A stretch of 64,000 nt of DNA from an uncultured bacterium (GTDB taxonomy: Bacteria; Verrucomicrobiota; Kiritimatiellia; RFP12; UBA1067). The position numbers were made by a program, and so were the translations under genes. The DNA lies in contig CACWVU010000008.1 of the NCBI GenBank assembly GCA_902764415.1, positions 1-64,000 of the forward strand, read 5' to 3'. The first letter of the stretch is position 1. Each line of letters opens with the position of its first letter. Below the pieces are notes generated by a model. The model was not told the origin of the DNA and searched no databases. It saw only the letters and a list, made by a program, of their open reading frames with translations. This document shows positions 3,023-36,979 of this stretch, in pieces.

Positions 3023-4420
3023 ATGAAAACCAAATCGAACTTCCGCTGGATCATCTGCGCGTTGCTCTTCTTCGCAACGACCGTCAACTACCTCGACCGC
3101 CAGGTCCTCTCCCTCACCTGGAAGGACTTCATCTCGCCGGAGTTCAACTGGACCGACAACGACTACGGCACGATCACGGCGACGTTCTCGATCATCTACG
3201 CGCTGTGCAACCTTTTCGCCGGCAAGTTCATCGACAAGCTCGGGACGAAGAAGGGGTATCTGTGGGCGATCTTCATCTGGTCGCTCGGCGCGTGCCTCCA
3301 CGCGGCTTGCGGCGTAGGCACCGAATGGCTCAAGGCGGCCGGCTTCCTCGGCATGATGGGCATCACCGCGTCCGTGTGGCTCTTCCTCGCGTGCCGCGCG
3401 GTGCTGGCGCTCGGCGAGGCGGGCAACTTCCCCGCGGCGATCAAGGTGACGGCCGAGTACTTCCCCAAGAAGGACCGCGCCTTCGCGACCTCGATCTTCA
3501 ACTCCGGCTCTTCCGTCGGCGCGCTCGCAGCGCCGCTGTCGATTCCGATCATCGCGAAGTTCTGGGGCTGGGAGATGGCGTTCATCGTCATCGGCGCGCT
3601 CGGCTTCGTCTGGATGGGCTTCTGGATCTGGCTCTACAGGAAGCCCGCCGAAAACCCGCGCGTCTCGTCCGAGGAGCTCAAGTACATCAACCAGGACGAA
3701 GGCGCTGAGCCGGCTGCCGCCGAGCCGGAGAAGGAAGAGAAGAAGATCTCCTACGCCAAGGCGTTTTCGCTCCGCCAGACCTGGGCGCTCGTCTTCGGGC
3801 GCTTCCTCACCGACGGCGTGTGGTGGTTCTTCCTCTTCTGGACGCCCGGCTATCTCTCCGACCAGTTCGGGTACAAGAGCGATTCCGGGATGGGCATGGC
3901 GCTCATCTTCACCCTCTACGCGATCGTCACCTTCGTCTCGATCTACCTCTGCAAGATCCCGACCTACATGGTCGACAAGCGCGGCATGAACGCATACGAA
4001 GGCCGGATGGTCGCGATGTTCATCTTCGCGTGCTTCCCGCTCCTGGCGCTCGGCGCCCAGCCGCTCGGCTCGTTCTCGGCGTGGTGGCCGGCGATCCTCA
4101 TCGGCCTCGCCTGCGCCGGGCACCAGGCGTGGAGCGCGAACGTCTACTCGGTCGTCGGCGACATGTTCCCGAAGTCGACGATCGGCACCCTGACCGGCAT
4201 CGCCCAGTTCGCCGCCGGCTGCGGCAGCTTCATGGTGAACAAGTGCGCGGGCAAGCTCTTTACCTATGCGGCGGAGCAGGGCGACGCGTTCTCGTTCTGC
4301 GGCTACACCGGCAAGCCCGCCGGCTACATGATCCTCTTCAGCTACTGCGCCGTCGCGTACATCATCGGCTGGTGCTTTATGAAGGGGCTGGTGCCGAAGT
4401 ACCGCAAGGTTGAACTCTAA
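3023..4420 (+). CDS. MFS transporter, anion:cation symporter (hexuronate-type)
   Basis: A 465-residue inner-membrane protein with about 12 hydrophobic segments. The N-terminal signature NYLDRQVLS is typical of the ACS family, which includes ExuT and GudP and imports sugar acids with protons. A charged central loop (residues about 215-245, rich in Glu and Ala) separates the two six-helix halves. It starts a run with a mannitol-dehydrogenase-family reductase 13 nt downstream, so uptake of a hexuronate such as glucuronate or galacturonate is plausible. The substrate itself cannot be read from sequence. The start at 3023 is fixed by the promoter directly upstream. Confidence 0.85.
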   Translation: MKTKSNFRWIICALLFFATTVNYLDRQVLSLTWKDFISPEFNWTDNDYGTITATFSIIYALCNLFAGKFIDKLGTKKGYLWAIFIWSLGACLHAACGVGTEWLKAAGFLGMMGITASVWLFLACRAVLALGEAGNFPAAIKVTAEYFPKKDRAFATSIFNSGSSVGALAAPLSIPIIAKFWGWEMAFIVIGALGFVWMGFWIWLYRKPAENPRVSSEELKYINQDEGAEPAAAEPEKEEKKISYAKAFSLRQTWALVFGRFLTDGVWWFFLFWTPGYLSDQFGYKSDSGMGMALIFTLYAIVTFVSIYLCKIPTYMVDKRGMNAYEGRMVAMFIFACFPLLALGAQPLGSFSAWWPAILIGLACAGHQAWSANVYSVVGDMFPKSTIGTLTGIAQFAAGCGSFMVNKCAGKLFTYAAEQGDAFSFCGYTGKPAGYMILFSYCAVAYIIGWCFMKGLVPKYRKVEL

Positions 4421-20102: not shown

Positions 20103-20842
20103 GCGACACGGCCGCAAACCCCCTCGACAACATCCGGGTGGTGCTGGTCGGCACCCTCTACACCGGCAACGTCGGCTCCAGCTGCCGCGCCATGGCCAAC
20201 ATGGGGATAAGGCACCTGAGGCTCGCCGCGCCGAACCTCCAGAACTCCTGGGAGGAGGGCGAGCGCCTCGCCGTGCACGCGACCGACATCCTCGCCGCGC
20301 GCGAGGAGTTCCCGTCGCTTGAGGCGGCTGTCGCCGACTGCGTCGCCGTCGTCGGCACCACCGCGCGCGAAGGGCTCTACCGCCAGCACGTCAAGGCGCC
20401 GCGCGACTGCGCCTCCGACATCCTCTCCGTCGCCGCCACCGGACCGGTCGCGCTCGTCTTCGGCCGCGAGGACAAGGGGCTCCTCAACGAGGAAATCGCC
20501 CAGTGCACCCACCTCGTGCGGATTCCGGTGGACGAGGGCTACACTTCGCTCAACCTCTCGCAGGCCGTGCTTCTCACCTGCTACGAGCTCTTCGCCGCGT
20601 CCGGCCGCTACGTGCCTCCGCACGAGAAGGCGCCGCCCGCGCCACAGGCCCAGAAGGCGCAGCTGAACAAAAACTGGGCCGCCATGCTCCGGGAAATCGG
20701 CTTCATGAAGGAGGAGCAGACCGACCACTTCATGCAGGGCTTCCAGCGCGTCTTCTCGCGCGGGGTGGTGACCAAGGACGACGCCGCGCTGATGCTCGGC
20801 GTCGCCCGCCAGGCCGTGTGGGCGGCGAAGAACCATGCGTGA
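20099..20842 (+). CDS. SpoU-family RNA 2'-O-methyltransferase (TrmJ-like)
   Basis: A 247-residue trefoil-knot (SPOUT) methyltransferase. Motifs: VVLVGTLYTGNVGSSCRAM (motif 1, ribose substrate binding), VALVFGREDKGL (motif 2) and IPVDEGYTSLNLSQAV (motif 3, SAM-binding knot). The extra C-terminal helical tail fits the TrmJ/group 1 branch, which modifies Nm32 of tRNA in other bacteria. The start is GTG 20099 within the previous stop region. The C-terminus overlaps the next gene by 8 nt. Confidence 0.88.
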   Translation: MSDTAANPLDNIRVVLVGTLYTGNVGSSCRAMANMGIRHLRLAAPNLQNSWEEGERLAVHATDILAAREEFPSLEAAVADCVAVVGTTAREGLYRQHVKAPRDCASDILSVAATGPVALVFGREDKGLLNEEIAQCTHLVRIPVDEGYTSLNLSQAVLLTCYELFAASGRYVPPHEKAPPAPQAQKAQLNKNWAAMLREIGFMKEEQTDHFMQGFQRVFSRGVVTKDDAALMLGVARQAVWAAKNHA

Positions 20843-22850
20843 CGTTGCCTTCAGCTGCGACGACGGCGGCGTCCCCTACCTGAAGACGGCGGTGTGGTCG
20901 CTCCTCTCCCGCTACGCCGGCAAGGATCCGCTCAGGGTCAACGTGTTCGAGGGCTGGGGCGGGCACTCCGCCGCGCACAAGGCGGAGCTGGCGGAGCTGG
21001 TCGGCCGCTTCGCCGGCGCGACGCTGCGCTACGTCGACGTCGAGCAGCCGCTCAAGCCCTACGCGGACGCCATCGCGCCGCGCCCCGGCTCGCGCTGGAA
21101 CGTATTCACCTGGACGCCCGTCTTTACCCCGCTGCTGATTCCCGACGCGACTGGCAACGTGATCCACTTCGACATCGACATGCTCTTCAACGCCGACGTC
21201 TCGCCGCTCTTCGAGCTCGATCTCTCCGGGGACGGCGGCGAGCCGTTCCTCGTCGCTTGCGCCTACGAGTACGACAAGTTCGGCGACAACGCCGGCCGCG
21301 AGATCTGGGAGAAGGGCATCCTGCCGCCGGAAGCAGAGCGCTACTTCAACACCGGCGTCCTGGTGTTCAACTCCGAGGCCTGCCGCGCCGAGCGCACCTG
21401 GGACCGGATCGTCGAGTGGTACCGCGCCCACTACGACGTCGCCGACCGCATCGAGCAGGACGCCTGGAACGCGCTCTACTGGCGGCGGGTGAAGCCGCTT
21501 GAGGTGAGGTGGAATTTCCACGACCGCAACCTCAAGGGCTACGCGCGCTGGCCGCTGAACGCGAAGTACTGGCTCGGCAACACCCCGCGCGAATGCATGG
21601 AGGCGGCGGTGAACCCGGCGATTCTCCACTTCTGGGGGCCGAAGAAGCCGTGGAAGCCGTCGCACCGCCCCTACCGTGGCCTCTACCACCGCGCCATGCG
21701 CGAGGTGGGGCTCAAGCCGCCGCGGGAGCAGCTGCTCGTCCCCTGGTACGACTTCGTCAATGCCTGCGACATGGCGGCGGTGAAGGACACCCTGCGCATT
21801 CCCGCCGACTACTACCCGCGCGCCGGGTTCAACCGCGCCGCGATGGTTGCCGCCGCCCGCCGCCGCCGCCTCGTGAAGGCGGTCGTGCGGGTGCTGCTGG
21901 TGCCGTTCGAGTGGCTGGCCATCGGCATCGGCCTCGCCACTTTGCCTTTCGTCGGTCGGCGGACGATGCAGCGGCTCTGCGACTTCGCGGCCGGCCTCAT
22001 GTACCTCTTCGACCGGAAGGGGCGCCGCCGCGCGCTCGCGAACCTGCGCGTCGTCCTCGGCACCGCGAAGGGGAACGAGGGCACCTTCTTCTTCGACGCC
22101 GCCAAGGCGAAGTACGACCCGACCCCACGCGAGCGCAAGGTTGTGCGCGGCGCCTACCGCAACATGGCCCGCGCCGTCGGACACGCGTTCTGGACCTCGC
22201 GCCGCGCCGCGGAACGCGTGCGCGTGGCCGGCGAGATGAGCGCCGAGTGCGTGGCGAAGCTGCGCGGGAGCCGTCCGGCGATCACGGTGTCGGGGCATAT
22301 CGGCTGCTGGGAGATCCTCTCGCAGCTGGCGCAGCTCGAAGGCCATTCGATGATGTCCGTCGCCAAGGACATCGGCACCCGGGCGATGACCGCGCTGCTC
22401 GCGCGGGCGCGGCGCTCGGCGGGGCAGGAGATCGTCCCCGCCGCCGGCGCGTTCCGTCCGCTCCTCGCCGGCATCCGCGCCGGCAAGTCGCTCGGGCTCC
22501 TCGTCGACCAGCGCGTCTCGCCTGACGACGGCGGCATCTGGGTCAGGTTCTTCGGCCGCCCGGTGCCGGTCTCCGCCGCGCCGGCGTTCTTCGCCAGCCG
22601 CACCAAGGCTCCGATCCTCGTCGCCTGGTCGCGTCCGCTCGCCGACGGCCGCTACCGCTGCGAGTTCCTTGACCGCATCGCGCCAGAGGAGGCGAAGGAC
22701 GTCTGGTCGGCAACCCAGCGCATCACCCACGACCTCGAGTGCGTCATCATCCGCCATCCCTCGCGCTGGGTGATGAACTACAATCTCTTCGGCACGTTCC
22801 CCACCCCCGCCGACCTCGAGACCCTCGCCTCCCGCGAGCGCGCCCTCTAA
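20835..22850 (+). CDS. GT8 glycosyltransferase fused to LpxL-type lipid acyltransferase
   Basis: A 671-residue protein joining two envelope-lipid enzymes. Residues 1-310 are a GT8-like glycosyltransferase (LgtC/GspA type) with the metal-binding DID at 113-115 and HFWGPKKPW near 265. Residues 345-665 resemble the lysophospholipid/lipid A acyltransferase family (LpxL/HtrB), with the catalytic H-x4-E at His488-Glu493 (HIGCWE) and DQRVSPDDGGIWVRFFG for substrate contacts. A hydrophobic stretch (about 350-375) would anchor it in the inner membrane. One polypeptide could both glycosylate and acylate a lipid A or glycolipid precursor; that is inference. It ends a tightly overlapping run from the activase gene. 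Confidence 0.82.
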   Translation: MRDVAFSCDDGGVPYLKTAVWSLLSRYAGKDPLRVNVFEGWGGHSAAHKAELAELVGRFAGATLRYVDVEQPLKPYADAIAPRPGSRWNVFTWTPVFTPLLIPDATGNVIHFDIDMLFNADVSPLFELDLSGDGGEPFLVACAYEYDKFGDNAGREIWEKGILPPEAERYFNTGVLVFNSEACRAERTWDRIVEWYRAHYDVADRIEQDAWNALYWRRVKPLEVRWNFHDRNLKGYARWPLNAKYWLGNTPRECMEAAVNPAILHFWGPKKPWKPSHRPYRGLYHRAMREVGLKPPREQLLVPWYDFVNACDMAAVKDTLRIPADYYPRAGFNRAAMVAAARRRRLVKAVVRVLLVPFEWLAIGIGLATLPFVGRRTMQRLCDFAAGLMYLFDRKGRRRALANLRVVLGTAKGNEGTFFFDAAKAKYDPTPRERKVVRGAYRNMARAVGHAFWTSRRAAERVRVAGEMSAECVAKLRGSRPAITVSGHIGCWEILSQLAQLEGHSMMSVAKDIGTRAMTALLARARRSAGQEIVPAAGAFRPLLAGIRAGKSLGLLVDQRVSPDDGGIWVRFFGRPVPVSAAPAFFASRTKAPILVAWSRPLADGRYRCEFLDRIAPEEAKDVWSATQRITHDLECVIIRHPSRWVMNYNLFGTFPTPADLETLASRERAL

Positions 22851-22899: not shown

Positions 22900-24447
22900 A
22901 TGGCATTGCCGCTGAACATAGACGACTTGATTCATCAGCGCAAGGTAGAGAGTGCGAGGATAGAATACAAGAAGGACTGGAACCCCGAAAAGGTGCTCCA
23001 TTCGGTCTGCGCATTCGCAAACGACATCGACAACTGGGGTGGAGGCTACATAATCATCGGGGTGGAAGAGAAGAACGGTCAGCCGGTCTTGCCGCCGAAT
23101 GGAATCCGCAAGGAGTCGGTGGATGCCGTAAACAAGGAGCTTCTGAACGTCTGCAACTTGATTGAGGGGCGGTATGTCCCCGTCGTCTCGCACGAAGTGT
23201 ACAATGGGGCGGACATCCTTGTGCTGTGGTGTCCGGCGAGCGCGGTGCGTCCGCACAAATGCCCGGTGGTGATCGCGAAGAATGCCAAGAGCGAGAAGGC
23301 GTACTACATCCGCAAGGCTAACTCCACGATTCGGGCTAATGCGGAAGAGGAGCGAGTGCTTTTCGAGTATGCCGGGAAGGTGCCGTTCGACGAGCGCCCG
23401 AACATGCGCGCCTCGGTTTCGGACATCCGCATGTCGTTGCTGCTGCCGTTTCTGGAGTCGGTCGGGAGCGAGCTCGCGAAAGACGCCGCCACGCGAAGCG
23501 TTGCCGATGTCGCGCGTGACATGCTGTTATTGGAGGGACCTCCCGAAGACGAGCATCCCATCAACGCGGCGCTCATGTTCTTCAACGAGCATCCCGAGAA
23601 GTTCTTCCGCTATGCGTGGATCGAGGTCGTGGACAAGCCAGACCCGACCGGGCAGGGGATGGAGGAGCAGACGTTCAAGGGACCGCTGGACGTGCAGCTA
23701 CGCGCCGCGCTCAACTACATCAGCGGCGCGGTGCTGAAGGAGAAGATATTCAAGCACGACGACCGCGCCGAGGCCGACCGGATATGGAACTATCCATACG
23801 CTGCCGTGGAGGAGGCGCTTGCCAACGCCGTCTATCACCGCAGCTACGAGCCGTGTGCTCCTGTGGAGGTGACGATTACGCCGACGCAGCTTGAAATTTC
23901 CAGTCTTCCGGGGATGGACCGCTCGATTACAGACGCCAACCTCAAGGACTTCAATATCCGCAGTAGATTCTACCGCAATCGCCGCATCGGGGAGTTCCTC
24001 AAGGAGTTAGATCTTGCCGAAGGGCGCAATACTGGAATCGGGAAGATTGTACGCGCAATGCGCGAGAACGGATCGCCCGACCCGCAGTTCTACAATCCCG
24101 AAACCCGTTCCTTCATGACCGTTATCCTGCCGATTCACGAGGCATTTAAGGCTGATGCGGTGAAGATAGAGACAGAAACTGTGGTGAAAACCGGTATGAA
24201 AACAGATGCTGGCACTGTAAATGGCACTGTAAATGGCACTGTAGAAGATCAGGCATCACCATTTAACCTTGCGAGTAGGATAATTGAGGCCATAAAGTCG
24301 AACAGTAGAATTACCTATGATGCATTGGCTGTTGCGACAGGAGCTTCTCGGCGCACAATTAGTCGAGAAATTAAGATGCTTTCTCAACAAGGGATTCTGA
24401 GGCGTATCGGTTCAGACAAGACCGGTCATTGGGAAGTCGTGAAGTGA
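22900..24447 (+). CDS. AlbA_2/ATP-binding putative transcriptional regulator
   Basis: A 515-residue protein. Residues 10-140 form an AlbA_2 (Schlafen AAA_4-like) domain: ARIEYKKDW, FANDIDNWGGGYIIIGVEE, YYIRKANST. Residues 270-410 match the HATPase_c_4 region (YPYAAVEEALANAVYHRSY, GRNTGIGKIVRAM). The last 60 residues form a winged helix (SRITYDALAVATGASRRTISREIKML). The three-part layout is that of widespread accessory regulators whose ligand is unknown; some relatives take part in phage defence. A short repeat encodes VNGTVNGTV near residue 430. The gene is AT-richer than the housekeeping genes before it. Confidence 0.8.
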   Translation: MALPLNIDDLIHQRKVESARIEYKKDWNPEKVLHSVCAFANDIDNWGGGYIIIGVEEKNGQPVLPPNGIRKESVDAVNKELLNVCNLIEGRYVPVVSHEVYNGADILVLWCPASAVRPHKCPVVIAKNAKSEKAYYIRKANSTIRANAEEERVLFEYAGKVPFDERPNMRASVSDIRMSLLLPFLESVGSELAKDAATRSVADVARDMLLLEGPPEDEHPINAALMFFNEHPEKFFRYAWIEVVDKPDPTGQGMEEQTFKGPLDVQLRAALNYISGAVLKEKIFKHDDRAEADRIWNYPYAAVEEALANAVYHRSYEPCAPVEVTITPTQLEISSLPGMDRSITDANLKDFNIRSRFYRNRRIGEFLKELDLAEGRNTGIGKIVRAMRENGSPDPQFYNPETRSFMTVILPIHEAFKADAVKIETETVVKTGMKTDAGTVNGTVNGTVEDQASPFNLASRIIEAIKSNSRITYDALAVATGASRRTISREIKMLSQQGILRRIGSDKTGHWEVVK

Positions 24448-24466
24448 GCCCACGCGCCGTGAGATT

Positions 24467-24475
24467 TGGTATAAT
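24467..24475 (+). promoter_or_regulatory. Extended -10 promoter of a leader or RNA transcript
   Basis: TGGTATAAT, hexamer 24470-24475. Downstream come a Shine-Dalgarno, an 11-codon ORF and structured RNA rather than a normal gene. Confidence 0.65.
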
Positions 24476-24493
24476 ACGCAACAAAAGGATTTC

Positions 24494-24529
24494 ATGAAAC
24501 TTAAACTGCAAATGAAAGGAACAAGCTAA
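24494..24529 (+). CDS. 11-codon ORF, possible leader peptide
   Basis: The ORF encodes MKLKLQMKGTS, then TAA. It has a good Shine-Dalgarno (AAAAGGA, 6 nt before the ATG) and lies 18 nt after a perfect -10. It could be a leader peptide for the structured RNA downstream or the remnant of a deleted gene. Its composition is not biased to one amino acid beyond Lys, so it is not a typical attenuator peptide. Confidence 0.35.
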   Translation: MKLKLQMKGTS

Positions 24530-24556
24530 GCAGCAACAAGTGCTCTGCCTGGATTG

Positions 24557-24597
24557 TAAAAGTGAGAAAACAGGTCTGACCTGAATTATCACTTTTA
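24557..24597. repeat. Compound hairpin, REP-like
   Basis: Outer arms TAAAAGTGA (24557-24565) and TCACTTTTA (24589-24597) pair over 9 bp. Inner arms CAGGT (24571-24575) and ACCTG (24579-24583) pair with loop CTG. The inner GGTCTGACC core resembles the palindrome at 962-976. Between here and 24680 no gene is seen. Confidence 0.55.
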
Positions 24598-24680
24598 GAA
24601 CGAGGTGGGGTGATAGATTTCCCGCGTGTGCGGTAGGGTTGCGACAATGCGTAGCTGCCATCCGCCGCGTCTGGGCGCGT

Positions 24681-24825
24681 CACGAGAAAGACCTGAGAAT
24701 CCAACTCGACATAACGACGCAACGAAAAGGACACTGCCGTCCGTGCAGTTTCGCCTCCTTCGGTGTATCGTTATAGGTTCTCTCAGGCACCTCTCGTGAT
24801 GCATCGGAGGAGGTGTTATTTTTTC
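24681..24825 (+). ncRNA. Candidate structured RNA with overlapping intrinsic terminator
   Basis: Four nested perfect helices are visible: CACGAGA/TCTCGTG (24681-24687 with 24792-24798), CCTGAGA/TCTCAGG (24692-24698 with 24781-24787), ATAACGA/TCGTTAT (24711-24717 with 24768-24774) and ACTGC/GCAGT (24733-24737 with 24745-24749). AAGGA/TCCTT can add a fifth (24727-24731 with 24756-24760). A terminator-like stem CACCTC/GAGGTG (24788-24793 with 24810-24815) followed by TTATTTTTT shares 24792-24793 with the outer helix, so the two would compete at that point. It fits no RNA family I can name. It may be a regulatory leader for the gene at 24886 or an independent small RNA. Strand is assigned from the T-tract and the upstream promoter. 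Confidence 0.5.
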
Positions 24826-24885
24826 CCGCGCCAAATCCGACTGTAACGAGGATGGGGAATGATAACTCAAGAAAGGTGGTGTGGC

Positions 24886-26061
24886 ATGGTTGATATACTG
24901 GCGGAACTGGTGAAGAAGGTGTACGCGGGGAAAGTGGCCATGTTCTTCGAAAAGGTGAAGGCACTGAACTTGACGGATGTTGAACTGGCAGCAGTTCCGT
25001 CATTGTTTCTCCCTGGGTGGGGAGAAAGGTATTCATCATCTTGCTTTAAGGTGGCAATAGCCGGAAAAGAGACATGGGATTGGGGAACCGATATAGGTGA
25101 TTCGCTGAAGTGTGATCTTGAGGCGCATGAAAATGGGCGATATGACATCATGGCCTCTTGCAGACGTTTTAGAGACGAAGGACCTGCGAAATGGTACAAC
25201 ACATTCTGGCAGTATCCTGCAACAGCGTTGGGAAAACTGTTTGGATGTACTCGCGACGAGGTGCTACAGAAAGACGGTCCACTGCTTCGCAGTATTGCGT
25301 GGTTTAACGGCCATGCGATTGAGACAAAAGACTCCAAAGGTGTAAAGGACGATATTTCAGAAGAAAAGATGAGGTTGATTCAGGATGCGGCTGATGAATC
25401 TGGGTTGAGCGATTTCGAGACATTTACAAGTGTGTTTCGGCCTAATGTGATTATGTATTTCTACAGAAATCAGAGCCTTGTTCCGGATCGGAATTTTCCT
25501 TCTGACATTGAACATACGCAAGATTGGGGTCCTCATAATCTGGTGAAGGAGTTGCGTATTGGTGGGCGCACACTAATGTTGCAGTTGCCGCATACGACAT
25601 ATCTTGCACAAAAGCATATTTCACAAGCGTATGTGGCCGATCTCATCTGCGATGTGTTGAAAGCGAGGAATATTCGTGTCGCGCTTTGTGATAAGGATGC
25701 CGCACTTGATTTTTATCGGATGAATGCCGTTGAATGGATGGCATGGGTTGAGTTTGTTCGAAATGAGTCGCAAAAATACCCTGATATGGACAATAAGACT
25801 CTCGCACGTCACCTTATTGCTGTAGTCGCGTGCGAACTTGCAAAGTGCAATGCGACAATGAATGCACAAACGCTCGTCCTTATCTTGAATGAAGTTGACA
25901 GGTTTCGACATGATAACTGGCAGTATTCTCCGGAATGTCGCGGCCCGTGTTCAAGTGTTCGAGGTGCATGGAATGAGTACGTAAATAATGGCAAGAATGA
26001 AGAGGCGGAATGGATTGCGCGGGCGTTTACAAAGCTAAATGGGTGTTTTGCTTATGAATAA
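24886..26061 (+). CDS. Protein of unknown function (weak uracil-DNA-glycosylase-like features)
   Basis: A 391-residue protein in AT-rich DNA unlike its GC-rich surroundings. The segment FKVAIAGKETWDWG (about residues 50-63) resembles the substrate-site strand of uracil-DNA-glycosylase-like proteins (typically VGQETxGW), and LMLQLPHTTYLAQKH (about 230-244) sits where such folds have an active-site His. The match is by eye and weak. The last 110 residues are unrelated to anything I recognise. Start: ATG 24886 with AAAGGTGG 6 nt upstream is preferred over the in-frame ATG 24859. It follows the structured RNA and terminator at 24681-24825, which may control it. Confidence 0.55.
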   Translation: MVDILAELVKKVYAGKVAMFFEKVKALNLTDVELAAVPSLFLPGWGERYSSSCFKVAIAGKETWDWGTDIGDSLKCDLEAHENGRYDIMASCRRFRDEGPAKWYNTFWQYPATALGKLFGCTRDEVLQKDGPLLRSIAWFNGHAIETKDSKGVKDDISEEKMRLIQDAADESGLSDFETFTSVFRPNVIMYFYRNQSLVPDRNFPSDIEHTQDWGPHNLVKELRIGGRTLMLQLPHTTYLAQKHISQAYVADLICDVLKARNIRVALCDKDAALDFYRMNAVEWMAWVEFVRNESQKYPDMDNKTLARHLIAVVACELAKCNATMNAQTLVLILNEVDRFRHDNWQYSPECRGPCSSVRGAWNEYVNNGKNEEAEWIARAFTKLNGCFAYE

Positions 26062-27358: not shown

Positions 27359-27432
27359 AGAGCAGTAGTACAAAAGCGAGCGAAGGGTCGAAGTTGTGGC
27401 CACGCCGAAAGTGTTGGAAGGAGGATTAAGTG

Positions 27433-30400
27433 ATGAAGAAGTCAATGTTCATAGTGGCGGCAATGATGATGGCTGGAATGGCTGTTGGCGATGTCATATG
27501 CGCGGGCGATAGTACGCCTGTTTCGATTGACACTCGAGCTGAGCCGATTGTCGATGTTATCAATATATCGTGGAATCCCGCGTGGATTGGAGGCGACGCG
27601 AATGGGACTGTTGTCATTACAGACAATGGCGAAGAGGTGTGGCGCGAGACTGGCGCAGGTGAGTTTTTGCATACGCTTTCTGGTGTCGGACGACACGAAC
27701 TAACCTACACGACATACATTGATGGAATTGCGCAGGATGAGGTATATGTGGTTACAGTATTCCAGGGCTGGAAGTATGAAGTTGCGGATGGAAGCGTGGT
27801 GATGGTTGAGGCTTCACAGAAACATGGTGATGTTGTAATCCCAGAAGAAATTGATGGTCGTGTAGTGACTGGTATTGGAGCAAGTGCATTCAAAGATTGT
27901 ACTGATTTGACGAGTGTTACGATGCCTGGCAGTGTGACGAGTATTGGAGATTATGCATTTGCTGGCTGCAGAGGGCTTACAAGCGTAATTATCCCGAATA
28001 ATGTGACAAATGTCGGGGATTCTGCATTCTTGGGCTGTGATAGATTGGTATGTGTAACGTTGCCGTGGCATCTCTTAACAGTCGGATCAAGTGATTGGCT
28101 ACTGTCGAGAAATGACTGGGCATTGGTAGCAACTGATTCAGATGGTATGGAGGGATATCGCTCGGCGGCAATTGGCCGCGACGCTTCATCGGCTATGATG
28201 TTGACGCTTGTTGGAGCGTGTGACTTTGCCTTCGACTGGAAGGTGTCAAGCGAACCAGGACATGATTATCTACGTTGGTATTTGGATGGGGTAGAGATGG
28301 GTAGAATAAGCGGAACGAATGGTACGTGGAATACTGTGTCCGTTTCGATGCCGGCAGGGGAACATACAATCAAGTGGAGCTATTCAAAAAATGGTAGCGG
28401 CACTTCTGGTTCCGACTGTGGTTGGGTGCGAGTCCCTACCAAGATGAAAGGATCGGTGAGGATCGCTGATCTGTTCCCTGATTCCTATGCCGTCCTAAAT
28501 TCTGTGATGTTGACAGGAATGGCAACGGAGATTCCTGGCCATGCATTTAATGGTTGCGCGTCCTTGACGGCCATAGACATCCCTTTATCGGTGACAAATA
28601 TTGGAATGGCAGCATTTGCCGGCTGCAGTGGGCTTACGAGCGTGACGATACCGAATAGCGTGAAAAGCATCGGAGATTCTGCATTCAATGGTTGCGGTGG
28701 GCTTGAAGATATGTCGCTGCCGTTTGTTGGGGCGCGACGTGGCAACAGTGGAACGGCGGATTCCGTTTTCGGCTACATTTTCGGCACGTCGGCATTTAAT
28801 AGTGGACAGAAGGTTGAGCAGTATTACAGCCCCAGACCACACGACGGCTTCTTTTACACAATTTCATACTACATTCCGGCATCGCTGACAACGGTCGCGA
28901 TAACCGATGAGACGATATTAGATTTCGGCGCGTTCTCCGGCTGTAGCGGACTGACAAGCGTGACGATACCTGGCAGCGTGACGAGCATAGGACAGTATGC
29001 GTTCGACGGCTGCAGCGGGCTGACGAGCGTGACGATTGGCAATAGCGTGACGAGTATCGGGGAAATGGCGTTCTATGGTTGCAGAGGGCTTACGAGCGTG
29101 ACGATTCCAAACAGCGTGACGAGTATCGGGGAACTGGCATTCTATGGTTGCAGTGGACTTATGAGTGTGACTATACCGCAATACGTGTGCGTCAATGGAT
29201 TCTCGTCAGCATTTTCATCTTCATATTCGAAAATCACCAAAATAGTTATTTCAGACGGCGTGACAAGTATCGGGTCTTCCGCTTTCTCTGGCTGCTATGG
29301 GCTTGCGAGCGTGACTATCCCGGATAGCGTGACGAATATCGGGTCTTCTGCTTTCTCCAGCTGCCGCGGGCTAACGAGCATAACGATACCGAACGGTGTG
29401 ACGAGTATCGGGAAAGATGCGTTCTACAATTGTAGCGGGCTTACGAGCGTGACGATGCCTAACTCGGTGACTATTATTGGGGAAGATGCGTTCCGTGGTT
29501 GTAGCGGACTTGCGAACGTGGTGATACCTGATAGCGTGACAAGCATCGGGTCTTCTGCATTCTACGGTTGTAGCGGGCTTACGAGTGTGACGATACCCGA
29601 TAGTGTGACGAGCATTGGCAATTGTGCGTTCTCTGGCTGTAGCGGACTGACAAGCGTGACGATACCTGGCAGCGTGACGAGCATAGGACAGTATGCGTTC
29701 GACGGCTGCAGCGGGCTTACGAGTGTGGAGATACCGAACAGTGTGACGAGCATCGGGTTTTCTGCGTTCTCCGGCTGTAGTGGGCTTACGAGTGTGACAA
29801 TACCCAACAGCGTGACGAGCATAGGACAGTATGCGTTCGACGGCTGCAGCGGATTAACGAGTGTAACGATACCCGACAGCGTGATTGGTATAGGTAGCGG
29901 TGCGTTCTCGGGTTGCGGCGGATTAATGAGCATAACGATGCCGCAAGTTGTCTGCGACATGGGGCTTTCGGCGGTTTTTCCTGCGGTGTATCAGACGATA
30001 TCAAGTGTGCATATCTCGGACAGCGTTACGAATATCGCTGACTATGCTTTTGCTGGGTGTACGAATTTGCAGACGGAAGTGTGGGGAGGGTACAAGGTGT
30101 TGGATGGATGGCTGATTGGCTATACGGACGAGGCGGAGGAGACGATTCCAGATGCCGACAAGCTGAAAGGGATTTGCAGCGAGGCGTTGAAGGGTTGCAC
30201 TGCGTTGAAGCGGCTGGAGTTCGGCGACGACTCGCGACTGGTGTCGGTCGGCGCGGAGGCACTGAAGGGTTGCACCGAGCTGAAGACGCTCGTCCTGCCG
30301 CCGAGTTTGACGCGGATCGGCGACGAGGCGTTTATGGGCTGTTCGTATCTCGACAACGTAATCGTGCCGGGAGGCGTCAAGTCTATCGGTAACCGCGCGT

Positions 30401-33051
30401 TCAAAAATTGCACCGGCTTTACCTGGGCGCAGATCGAGCATGGCGTGGAGTCCATTGGAGATGAGGCGTTCTATGGTTGTTGGCGGATTACGGAGGTGGA
30501 TATTCCATCGTCTGTGGCGTGGATTGGTGACAATGCCTTTGGCGGCGACAGCTCGATAACCAAGGTTGCGCTACGCGGCGACATCAGAAAGATGTCCGAG
30601 ATATTTTCGACTTATGATCAGATCACCGAAGCGACGGTCAAGCCTGGAACCGACGCGATAGAAGATGGACTGTTCAGTGGATGCTCGCGGTTGAAGAAGG
30701 TGTTTTTCCTTGGTAACAGCCCAGCGCTCCAGAACGGAGGAAGGAATCTCTATGATGGAACGATTGAAGATTATTGGGAATACAACAACGATTCACATCA
30801 ATGGGAGTCTGTCTCTCTTGTCACATATGTTGACAAGGATTCGACTGGATGGGACGGCACGCCTGGTTCACACACATTACCGATGATGTGGCCGCTTGAG
30901 GGCGACTACCGCCGCGAAATCAGGTATACTGATTCCATCATCACTCCTTGCTCGGTTGCGTTTGACGCGAATGGCGGGACGCCGAAGACACAGAATGTTA
31001 AGCAGCGGTCGGAAGAGCTGTTTGTGCTGCCGGCGGAGCCGAAGCGCGCGGACCACCTGTTTATGGGCTGGTGGACGGCGAAGGACGGCGGCGTGAAGGT
31101 GACTGATGAGACGGTGTTTTTGACAGGCGTGTACGAGACGCTTTACGCGCACTGGCAGCTTGTCGATCTCGGGGAGCCGGAGATCGACGACATCACCGCC
31201 GATGGCGACGGGTCGTTCAGCATGAAGCTGGACGACGAATGGCTCGTCCTCTCCAGGCTGGCGGTGAAGGGCTTGCCGTCCGGCCTGAAGTTCGACGCGA
31301 AGACGGGCGTCATCTCCGGCAAGGCGACGAAGCCGGGGACGTACAAGGTGACGGTGAGCGCGACGAACGCGACGCTGAAGAAGACGGCGACGGCGGAGTT
31401 CGAGATCGTGGTGCCGAACCTGACGAGCGAGAAGCTGCCGGGGCTGAAGGCGGAGACCTGCGCATACGACGTGGTGACGTGCGGCGTCGCGTTCCCGACG
31501 AATCTCGTGGATTGCTCGCCCGCGTCCGGCTGGACGGTGAAGGCGGCGGGTCTGCCGGCGGGGCTCAAGTTCACGGCGAAGGACATCGTCGACTCCAAGA
31601 CCAAGGCAGTGACCGTCCCCGCGAACACGATCTACGGCGTTCCGACGAAGGCGGGCACCTTTACCGTCACTTTCACGGCGTCGAAGCGGGGCGAGCAGAA
31701 CCAGGTCGCGACGATAACGCTGCGCGTCGAGGCGCTGCCGGCGTGGGCGCAGGGGACATTCACGGGGTACGTCGCCGGCGATGGCGGCGACTGCGGCTCC
31801 GCCACGATGACAGTCGCGGCGAACGGAAAGGTCAGCGGCAAGATAGCGCTCGGCGGCACGAACTGGACCTTCAGCGCGACAAGCTACACGGCTGTCGAAT
31901 GTCCTCAGTCGGATGCCTCCACGACTAATTTTGTCGTCGAGGCGGCGGCGAAGGCCGGCAAGGTGGAGCGGGCGATTGAACTTGCGGTGTCGGCCTGCGA
32001 CGGAGGCCCGGCCGGAACCGCCCTGGTGAACGGCGCCGCAACAGGCGGTTTCGTCGACGGCAGCGCCTCGCTTGCCGCGTGGCGCAACATGTGGAAGGAC
32101 AAGTCGACGGCGACCGCGGCAAAGGCGGTGATCGACCCGTTCATCGGCGTGTACACGGCGGCGGTCGCGGACGGCGCGGACTACGGCAGCGGCTACCTGT
32201 CGCTGACGGTCGGCAAGGACGGCAACGTGAAGGCGACCGGCAAGCTCGCGGACGGCACGAGCGTGAGCGCTACATCGCCGCTCATGTACGACGAGCCCGA
32301 AGGGTGGTTTGTCGTGCTGTACGCGGCTCCGTCCGCGTACAAGGGCGGCAGCTTTGCCGCGGCGGTCGGGTTCGGAGAACGGCTGACTCCTGTTCTCTTC
32401 GTGCCGCAGTGGACGAGCCGCAACCCGCAGGCGACGGGCGAGTACGGCGAAGGGTTCGCTCGCGTTGTTGATCTGGACGGCGCGTACTATAACAAGCTCG
32501 ACACGCTGCGCAAATACTACGAGTCGCTGCGGCTCGGGCTCAACGGCGCGCCGGAGCTTGGCTTCGTCCTCAAGGAGACGGCGCTTAACGAGCTGGGCAG
32601 GAAGACGACGGCAAGCTCTGCTTCGACGGCGTCGGCCGTCGACACGCTCTTGCATGACGATCTCACTGCGACGGTGGACGCGAACGGCAAGCTCGTCGTC
32701 GCCAAGGCGACGAAGCCGGTGCAGGACAGGGAGACGAAGGAATGGTCCTACGCCGGCACGAACGACGGGGCGCTGACGCTTTCCTTCACGCAGGCGACTG
32801 GCATCTTCAAGGGCTCGTATACGTTCTGGTACGACTACGAGTCGGCGAAAGACTACACGACCGGAAAGTCGACAAAGGCCCACACCTCCAAGAAGGTGAG
32901 CTTCGAGGGCATCCTCGTGCAGGGCGAGGATCCGAAGATGGACGGCTTCTACCTCTGGGACGCGGCGGGCGAGTACGAGGACGAGAAGACCGGCAAGGTC
33001 AAGACCTACAAGTACAAGCAGTCGTTCCCGGTGTGGCTAATCAGTGAATAG
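27433..33051 (+). CDS. Giant BspA-like leucine-rich-repeat surface protein
   Basis: An 1872-residue secreted protein with a signal peptide (MKKSMFIVAAMMMAGMAVG). Residues about 130-1060 hold some 25-30 BspA/TpLRR-type repeats of about 23 residues (CSGLTSVTIPDSVTSIGSSAF), interrupted by a lectin-like insert (about 240-340). A Listeria-Bacteroides (InlB B-type) repeat follows (VAFDANGG...MGWW, about 1175-1240), then two putative Ig-like domains (GLPSGLKFDAKTGVISG, about 1275-1430) and a beta-rich C-terminus. Such proteins mediate adhesion. The first 60 percent is AT-rich and the rest strongly GC-rich, so the gene looks mosaic. Start: ATG 27433 (GTG 27430 is possible) after GGAGG. An intrinsic terminator follows. 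Confidence 0.85.
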   Translation: MKKSMFIVAAMMMAGMAVGDVICAGDSTPVSIDTRAEPIVDVINISWNPAWIGGDANGTVVITDNGEEVWRETGAGEFLHTLSGVGRHELTYTTYIDGIAQDEVYVVTVFQGWKYEVADGSVVMVEASQKHGDVVIPEEIDGRVVTGIGASAFKDCTDLTSVTMPGSVTSIGDYAFAGCRGLTSVIIPNNVTNVGDSAFLGCDRLVCVTLPWHLLTVGSSDWLLSRNDWALVATDSDGMEGYRSAAIGRDASSAMMLTLVGACDFAFDWKVSSEPGHDYLRWYLDGVEMGRISGTNGTWNTVSVSMPAGEHTIKWSYSKNGSGTSGSDCGWVRVPTKMKGSVRIADLFPDSYAVLNSVMLTGMATEIPGHAFNGCASLTAIDIPLSVTNIGMAAFAGCSGLTSVTIPNSVKSIGDSAFNGCGGLEDMSLPFVGARRGNSGTADSVFGYIFGTSAFNSGQKVEQYYSPRPHDGFFYTISYYIPASLTTVAITDETILDFGAFSGCSGLTSVTIPGSVTSIGQYAFDGCSGLTSVTIGNSVTSIGEMAFYGCRGLTSVTIPNSVTSIGELAFYGCSGLMSVTIPQYVCVNGFSSAFSSSYSKITKIVISDGVTSIGSSAFSGCYGLASVTIPDSVTNIGSSAFSSCRGLTSITIPNGVTSIGKDAFYNCSGLTSVTMPNSVTIIGEDAFRGCSGLANVVIPDSVTSIGSSAFYGCSGLTSVTIPDSVTSIGNCAFSGCSGLTSVTIPGSVTSIGQYAFDGCSGLTSVEIPNSVTSIGFSAFSGCSGLTSVTIPNSVTSIGQYAFDGCSGLTSVTIPDSVIGIGSGAFSGCGGLMSITMPQVVCDMGLSAVFPAVYQTISSVHISDSVTNIADYAFAGCTNLQTEVWGGYKVLDGWLIGYTDEAEETIPDADKLKGICSEALKGCTALKRLEFGDDSRLVSVGAEALKGCTELKTLVLPPSLTRIGDEAFMGCSYLDNVIVPGGVKSIGNRAFKNCTGFTWAQIEHGVESIGDEAFYGCWRITEVDIPSSVAWIGDNAFGGDSSITKVALRGDIRKMSEIFSTYDQITEATVKPGTDAIEDGLFSGCSRLKKVFFLGNSPALQNGGRNLYDGTIEDYWEYNNDSHQWESVSLVTYVDKDSTGWDGTPGSHTLPMMWPLEGDYRREIRYTDSIITPCSVAFDANGGTPKTQNVKQRSEELFVLPAEPKRADHLFMGWWTAKDGGVKVTDETVFLTGVYETLYAHWQLVDLGEPEIDDITADGDGSFSMKLDDEWLVLSRLAVKGLPSGLKFDAKTGVISGKATKPGTYKVTVSATNATLKKTATAEFEIVVPNLTSEKLPGLKAETCAYDVVTCGVAFPTNLVDCSPASGWTVKAAGLPAGLKFTAKDIVDSKTKAVTVPANTIYGVPTKAGTFTVTFTASKRGEQNQVATITLRVEALPAWAQGTFTGYVAGDGGDCGSATMTVAANGKVSGKIALGGTNWTFSATSYTAVECPQSDASTTNFVVEAAAKAGKVERAIELAVSACDGGPAGTALVNGAATGGFVDGSASLAAWRNMWKDKSTATAAKAVIDPFIGVYTAAVADGADYGSGYLSLTVGKDGNVKATGKLADGTSVSATSPLMYDEPEGWFVVLYAAPSAYKGGSFAAAVGFGERLTPVLFVPQWTSRNPQATGEYGEGFARVVDLDGAYYNKLDTLRKYYESLRLGLNGAPELGFVLKETALNELGRKTTASSASTASAVDTLLHDDLTATVDANGKLVVAKATKPVQDRETKEWSYAGTNDGALTLSFTQATGIFKGSYTFWYDYESAKDYTTGKSTKAHTSKKVSFEGILVQGEDPKMDGFYLWDAAGEYEDEKTGKVKTYKYKQSFPVWLISE
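28939..29717. repeat. Exact 83-nt duplication within the LRR array
   Basis: Bases 28939-29021 and 29635-29717 are identical over 83 nt, although neighbouring repeats differ at many silent sites. This indicates recent gene conversion or duplication inside the array. Confidence 0.7.
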
Positions 33052-36902: not shown

Positions 36903-36979
36903 GCGACTGTAGCTCAATTGGATAGAGCGTTGGCCTCCGAAGCCGAAGGTTGCTGGTTCGATCCCAGTCAGTCGCACCA
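36903..36979 (+). tRNA. tRNA-Arg, anticodon CCG
   Basis: The 77-nt cloverleaf is complete, with CCA encoded. Acceptor GCGACTG (36903-36909) pairs with CAGTCGC. The anticodon stem TTGGC/GCCGA encloses CTCCGAA, giving anticodon CCG (codon CGG). The T arm GCTGG-TTCGATC-CCAGT is standard. Confidence 0.95.

Follow-up and report, generated by a model that had tools for sequence, protein, structure and literature searches.

Layout of the leader

In the window, a 64,000-nucleotide stretch of a MAG of 2.6 Mb and 74 contigs, the leader considered here lies on the forward strand between an AlbA_2/HATPase gene (22900–24447) and a gene without family match (24886–26061). The sequence contains an extended −10 promoter, TTTGGTATAAT (24465–24475), from which transcription is expected to start at about 24481, a Shine-Dalgarno (SD) sequence, AAAAGGA (24483–24489), and an 11-codon ORF, MKLKLQMKGTS and stop (24494–24529), as an earlier sequence-only reading of the locus had listed them. 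A TATAAT-like box recurs about 90–120 nt 5′ of the core in most class 1 copies of the element, and often at about 33 or 60 nt in class 2 (class names 1–3 were coined in the present analysis; see below). The promoter stretch around TTTGGTATAATACGC (24465–24492) has about 30 other matching places in the genome, which hints at a highly uniform promoter consensus.

The predicted structure starts earlier than had been described, with a 5′ hairpin, P1 (24543–24612). Inside it lies a repeated palindrome, AAAAGTGAGAAAACAGGTCTGACCTGAATTATCACTTTT (24558–24596), which is absent from the aligned P1 region of other class 1 copies. This palindrome is a separate dispersed repeat, with about 5 other sites in the genome and 13 matches in genome G032. 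Further downstream, the class 1 alignment contains AGATTTCCCGCG (24615–24626), which together with P2, a CGCG stem, occupies 24615–24672. The core switch follows at 24673–24816, where a 140-position covariance model gives 139.9 bits (model R1) and 113.8 bits (model R2).

Within the core, a shared 5′ arm (24677–24687) has two alternative partners according to swap tests, namely 24792–24802 in a long rod and a local strand at about 24705–24720 in a hairpin termed B1. Rod helices P4–P6 and an apical hairpin, supported by covariation, form the putative antiterminator (24692–24787). The terminator hairpin (24754–24813), drawn from the class 2 arm swap, pairs 24754–24769 with 24798–24813 and holds an inner stem of about 24775–24779 with 24788–24792. 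A U-rich tract (24814–24824, with TTATTTTTT at 24816–24824) is placed by the T content of class 1 and class 2 copies. Also, the structured extent reaches past 24825, the last position of the stretch first described, into a probable class 1 pseudoknot (24803–24865) made of P7 (ATCGGA:TCCGA) and P8 (TTTTCCC:GGGGAA), for which swap tests gave z −4.1 and −4.7, respectively.

The gene behind the leader was held to be of unknown function, and its product of about 391 aa indeed has no Pfam or NCBIfam match. Its start is probably the ATG at 24886, which matches the start of the nearest homologue. The AlphaFold model of the protein (pLDDT 72.8) has a weak likeness to uracil-DNA glycosylase that is not significant (best PDB E-value 0.27), and homologues occur in just three other genomes of 58 searched. 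A tie of the RNA to this gene was rejected, as homologues of the gene are found without the RNA.

Several neighbouring features deserve mention. A homologue of the AlbA_2/HATPase protein is encoded directly 5′ of the RNA in four genomes (the window and loci L026, L027 and L039) and the gene 3′ of the RNA differs, as if cargo had been swapped at the leader. Locus L027 also has a partial class 1 5′ module, the P1/P2 part only, 5′ of the AlbA_2 gene (3205–3284). In the window, a single ORF at 20835–22850 combines a glycosyltransferase family 8 domain with a lipid A acyltransferase domain, and 27430–33051 encodes a BspA-type leucine-rich repeat protein of great length (SVTIPNSVTSIG repeats); proteins of this type are also encoded 3′ of the RNA elsewhere.

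Family and distribution

DNA searches of the genus and order recovered copies of the rod/terminator region in many genus genomes, with differing neighbours, and an alignment of 28, then 37, copies made a conserved core visible. The computed family extends well beyond what the sequence-only reading had described: it is multi-copy and order-wide, its RNA is independent of the downstream gene, and nearly all other copies lack the 11-codon ORF. R1 matches were found in 36 of 58 genus genomes and 83 of 162 order genomes, and their scores form two groups, class 1 (mostly above 100 bits) and class 2 (about 30–90 bits, at full length). With the combined, broader model R2, five copies were detected in the window's genome, and matches in 50 of 193 genomes drawn from the class and 38 of 289 sampled from the phylum, five of the latter lying outside the class. 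Distant families have single copies by R2, and a third sequence group, class 3, takes in the distant copies, while twelve genomes chosen as copy-rich carry 10–27 copies each. The element-bearing contigs come mostly from ruminant gut where a source is stated, and are named as Kiritimatiellae, Verrucomicrobia, Lentisphaerae or uncultured bacterium. Searched in viral contigs, a pattern built on the conserved apical part had 0 matches. Two copies in genomes of different families (L147 in G046 and L164 in G018) are identical, and so are the flanks that were read, which points to recent transfer or MAG contamination.

The 11-codon ORF is one instance of a small module, ATGAAAGGA..., with 6–9 codons to the stop. 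Leader-peptide attenuation, in which translation of this ORF would set the fold, draws on the recurrence of TGAAAGGA followed by a short in-frame ORF (6–9 codons) in the window and seven class 2 copies. However, these are 8 of 140 copies: the module is missing from the other 58 class 1, 32 of 39 class 2 and all 42 class 3 copies, and is thus dispensable for the family rather than a conserved short ORF coupled to the switch. Further, the window's ORF ends about 145 nt 5′ of the core and its peptide lacks any homopolymeric run, so that we find this explanation scarcely credible.

The abundance of copies, their variable neighbours and the occurrence of downstream-gene homologues without the element would also suit a MITE-like mobile or repeat element bearing a promoter and a terminator. 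Yet copies inside one genome are strongly diverged while both folds are kept by compensation, the alignments show no sharp ends, and copies are oriented towards genes. A mobile origin is therefore very improbable in our view.

Rod and terminator folds

The rod occupies 24677–24802 of the window, its 3′ arm overlapping the terminator hairpin. The four nested helices noted earlier are present (TCACGAGA/TCTCGTGA, CCTGAGA/TCTCAGG, ATAACGA/TCGTTAT and ACTGC/GCAGT), and the folding energy of 24673–24828 is −58.1 kcal/mol, whereas shuffled sequences average −43.5 (z −3.7), with 0 of 200 shuffles equalling it. The sequence-only reading had held that an absence of covariation in homologues would refute it; covariation is strongly present. 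RNAalifold on the aligned copies found changes on both sides in 14 of 38 pairs, and among 44 diverged copies both-sided changes occur in 37 of 38 rod pairs, with 94.7% of cells paired. Because the 44-copy alignment was fitted to the rod structure, controls matter here: rod covariation was 0.688, compared with 0.190 for shuffled and 0.06–0.12 for slid alignments. Swap tests, in which arms are exchanged between copies and duplex energies compared, need no fitted alignment, and their values are uncorrected for relatedness among copies. They gave z −12.1, −7.4 and −14.8 for P3, P4 and P5 in class 1, and −18.1, −12.7 and −7.2 in class 2.

The same tests detect a competing fold. In class 1, the variable part of the P3 5′ arm covaries with its rod partner (z −10.1, 0/20000 permutations) and with the local B1 strand (z −5.4, 0/20000), compared with z −0.6 for the P3 5′ arm against an unrelated control strand. 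The class 2 basal B1 swap reached z −8.1 (0/20000) when the whole basal stem was taken, and −0.5 and −2.1 with the shorter strand. The class 2 terminator arms gave z −12.5 (0/20000) and unrelated class 2 strands +1.9; the class 1 terminator swap is weak (z −2.1) because the arms are nearly invariant within class 1. In addition, a pair of the inner terminator stem, AGGY:RCCT, alternates between C-G (20/44) and U-A (15/44). RNAalifold did not recover the terminator fold from A3, an alignment fitted to the rod.

The terminator is a hairpin of 16–25 bp with a U-rich tail. For classes 1 and 2, the mean T content is about 0.5 across the 13 nt that follow this hairpin and about 0.1–0.2 a few dozen bases later; the T-tracts of class 1 are imperfect, e.g. 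GTGTCTATTTCCC. The 6-bp stem first proposed as the terminator, CACCTC/GAGGTG (24788–24793/24810–24815), does exist and overlaps the outer 3′ arm of the rod, but it is a lesser alternative to the larger hairpin. The supposed two-base overlap between rod and terminator has to be replaced: because of the larger hairpin, 24754–24769/24798–24813 with its inner AGGY:RCCT stem, the conflict involves most of the rod.

A stable hairpin and U-rich tract thus stand 5′ of a gene, together with a conserved antiterminator that excludes the terminator through shared arms. Two mutually exclusive folds, each with covariation across copies, argue for a genuine switch and bear out the attenuator or riboswitch layout suggested at the outset; one 5′ arm with two covarying partners would be hard to explain otherwise. 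When the states are enforced, the rod lies below the terminator state in energy in 51 of 58, 37 of 39 and 40 of 42 copies, and the equilibrium energy model prefers the rod by a median of 8–19 kcal/mol, while the window copy, at −52.3 and −51.2 kcal/mol, shows hardly any difference between the two. Given this equilibrium preference, termination would need kinetics or a factor.

Downstream genes, proposed mechanism and meaning

The leader position is consistent. In 85 of 94 copies the element shares its strand with the longest ORF downstream, which typically starts about 30–120 nt past the core, and an ATG with an SD and at least 100 codons falls within 260 nt of 79 of 140 copies as compared to 170 of 1400 random points. 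A trans-acting small RNA, either a 6S-like rod or an sRNA, with its own terminator and upstream of genes by chance, could account for the promoter of its own, the long rod with a central bubble, the terminator and the single copies in distant families. The up to 27 copies per genome, their orientation and their close spacing to start codons speak against it, as do the rod's destruction of the terminator, which a stand-alone sRNA would not need, and the lack of any match to 6S models; we judge it quite improbable.

Translational control merits more weight. The RNA might mainly hide or expose an SD, through GGAGG in the 3′ arm and P7/P8 near the start codon, with termination minor: an SD-like motif is found in the 3′ arm of 56 of 59 class 1 copies (6% background) and the arm facing it is CCTCC-like in 55, P7 and P8 covary, and in several copies of a related genus, g3, the 3′ arm lies about 9 nt 5′ of the ATG. 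Nevertheless, class 1 genes, that of the window among them, usually begin about 60–100 nt beyond the 3′ arm with an SD of their own, and the motif is seen in only 15 of 39 class 2 and 7 of 42 class 3 copies, though the hairpin and U-rich tract persist. A switch that acts primarily on translation is accordingly unlikely. In g3, the terminator T-tract leads directly into an SD-spaced start codon, e.g. AAAGGAGGCGTGTTTTTATG, and such adjoining of terminator and start codon suggests that transcription and translation are controlled together in that genus.

The genes behind the element are diverse. The matches of 86 downstream proteins are spread over 71 Pfam families, no one of which dominates, the commonest being BspA-type LRR (7), FRG (6), FGE-sulfatase (4), and Sel1 and SNase (3 each), and no common pathway that would hint at a ligand was found among them. 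They include surface-polysaccharide enzymes, FRG-domain proteins and DNA methylases. PEP-CTERM proteins make up 11 of 29 scanned in two g3 genomes, alongside acyltransferases, glycosyltransferases, GtrA and an EcoRI-type methylase, and in the window's genome the elements precede the window gene, a 213-aa unknown, an EcoRI-type methylase, HsdM and a Sel1-like protein. Exported proteins are enriched behind the element: by a crude signal-peptide test with heuristic starts and control ORFs, 55 of 121 downstream proteins were positive compared with 61 of 356 other ORFs (p 2e-9). A regulon of defence genes only was rejected, since these are a minority (six FRG/PDC-S15 proteins, a methylase and few others, of 86). 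The RNA probably decides the expression of surface, export and defence genes.

We read the element as a cis-acting, riboswitch-like transcription attenuator in which the rod means read-through and the terminator means off, with a probability of about 0.7. RNA polymerase would start near 24481 and make the leader, in which the 5′ arm (24677–24687) would first pair locally into B1. Later-emerging strands could then invade B1 to build the rod (P3–P6), the 5′ strand of P4 being able to act as a toehold because it lies in the B1 loop. The rod would occupy both terminator arms and let transcription run on into the gene; if B1 persisted, CCTCCTTCGGTGTATC would pair with GATGCATCGGAGGAGG, the U-rich tract would follow the hairpin, and transcription would stop. 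From the toehold position and the lower energy of the rod, read-through is taken as the default, a polarity that remains tentative. We infer that the predicted attenuator terminates transcription in vivo and responds to a signal; a ligand or protein that holds B1 and so causes termination appears slightly more probable than the reverse, a signal that stabilizes the rod. As the terminator arm carries the SD in some copies, translation would switch together with transcription there.

The RNA family is apparently undescribed to date. Rfam 15 membership requires a covariance-model score that reaches the curated gathering score. Searches of the window returned only a tRNA at 36903, those of the element to E 10 only microRNA and other chance matches far below gathering, and nothing relevant turned up in loci of classes 2 and 3, in agreement with the initial impression that no known family fits. 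A literature search, which covered few subscription papers and no preprints, found no description of the element. By analogy, the RNA may work like a riboswitch or a protein-controlled attenuator, and we assign it to neither. T-box leaders, which are marked by a T-box sequence, a specifier loop and amino-acid genes, have a similar terminator/antiterminator architecture, but there is no Rfam T-box match, and the 25 listed of the 71 Pfam families show no aminoacyl-tRNA synthetase or amino-acid theme. C-di-GMP (GEMM) riboswitches occur in many copies per genome 5′ of surface and exported genes, as does the element, whose fold is different and longer and has no Rfam match. Protein-dependent or processive antitermination leaders of the LoaP and RfaH/UpxY type precede surface-polysaccharide genes and likewise have a terminator to pass, whereas here the RNA itself holds a paired antiterminator.

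In the crcB and pfl motifs, structures overlap terminators (PMC2864571). The element shares with riboswitch-controlled intrinsic terminators the 5′ leader, the long conserved structure, the conserved junction nucleotides, the exclusive terminator and the several kinds of genes, but differs in that its genes lack a common metabolic theme, both folds covary and a genome may hold up to 27 copies. Acido-Lenti-1 RNA (RF01687) was reported from Lentisphaerae, an old grouping used for some element-bearing MAGs, and is listed as not cis-regulatory (PMC2864571); it has no match in the window or in those loci of classes 2 and 3 that were searched.

Gene regulation is little studied in Kiritimatiellae, a group represented here almost exclusively by MAGs from gut and rumen. 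We see an even chance that an undescribed class of signal-sensing RNA serves Kiritimatiellae, along with some further classes of the phylum, as a global switch under one cellular signal. If so, up to 27 leaders per genome would share one architecture, and through it surface polysaccharides, exported proteins (PEP-CTERM and others) and defence genes of the DNA-methylase and FRG types would be coordinated. A switch RNA with both folds readable by covariation would define a large regulon at once, and orphan genes, including that of the window, would gain a shared regulatory logic. The signal of the RNA would be directly testable in vitro with one short RNA.
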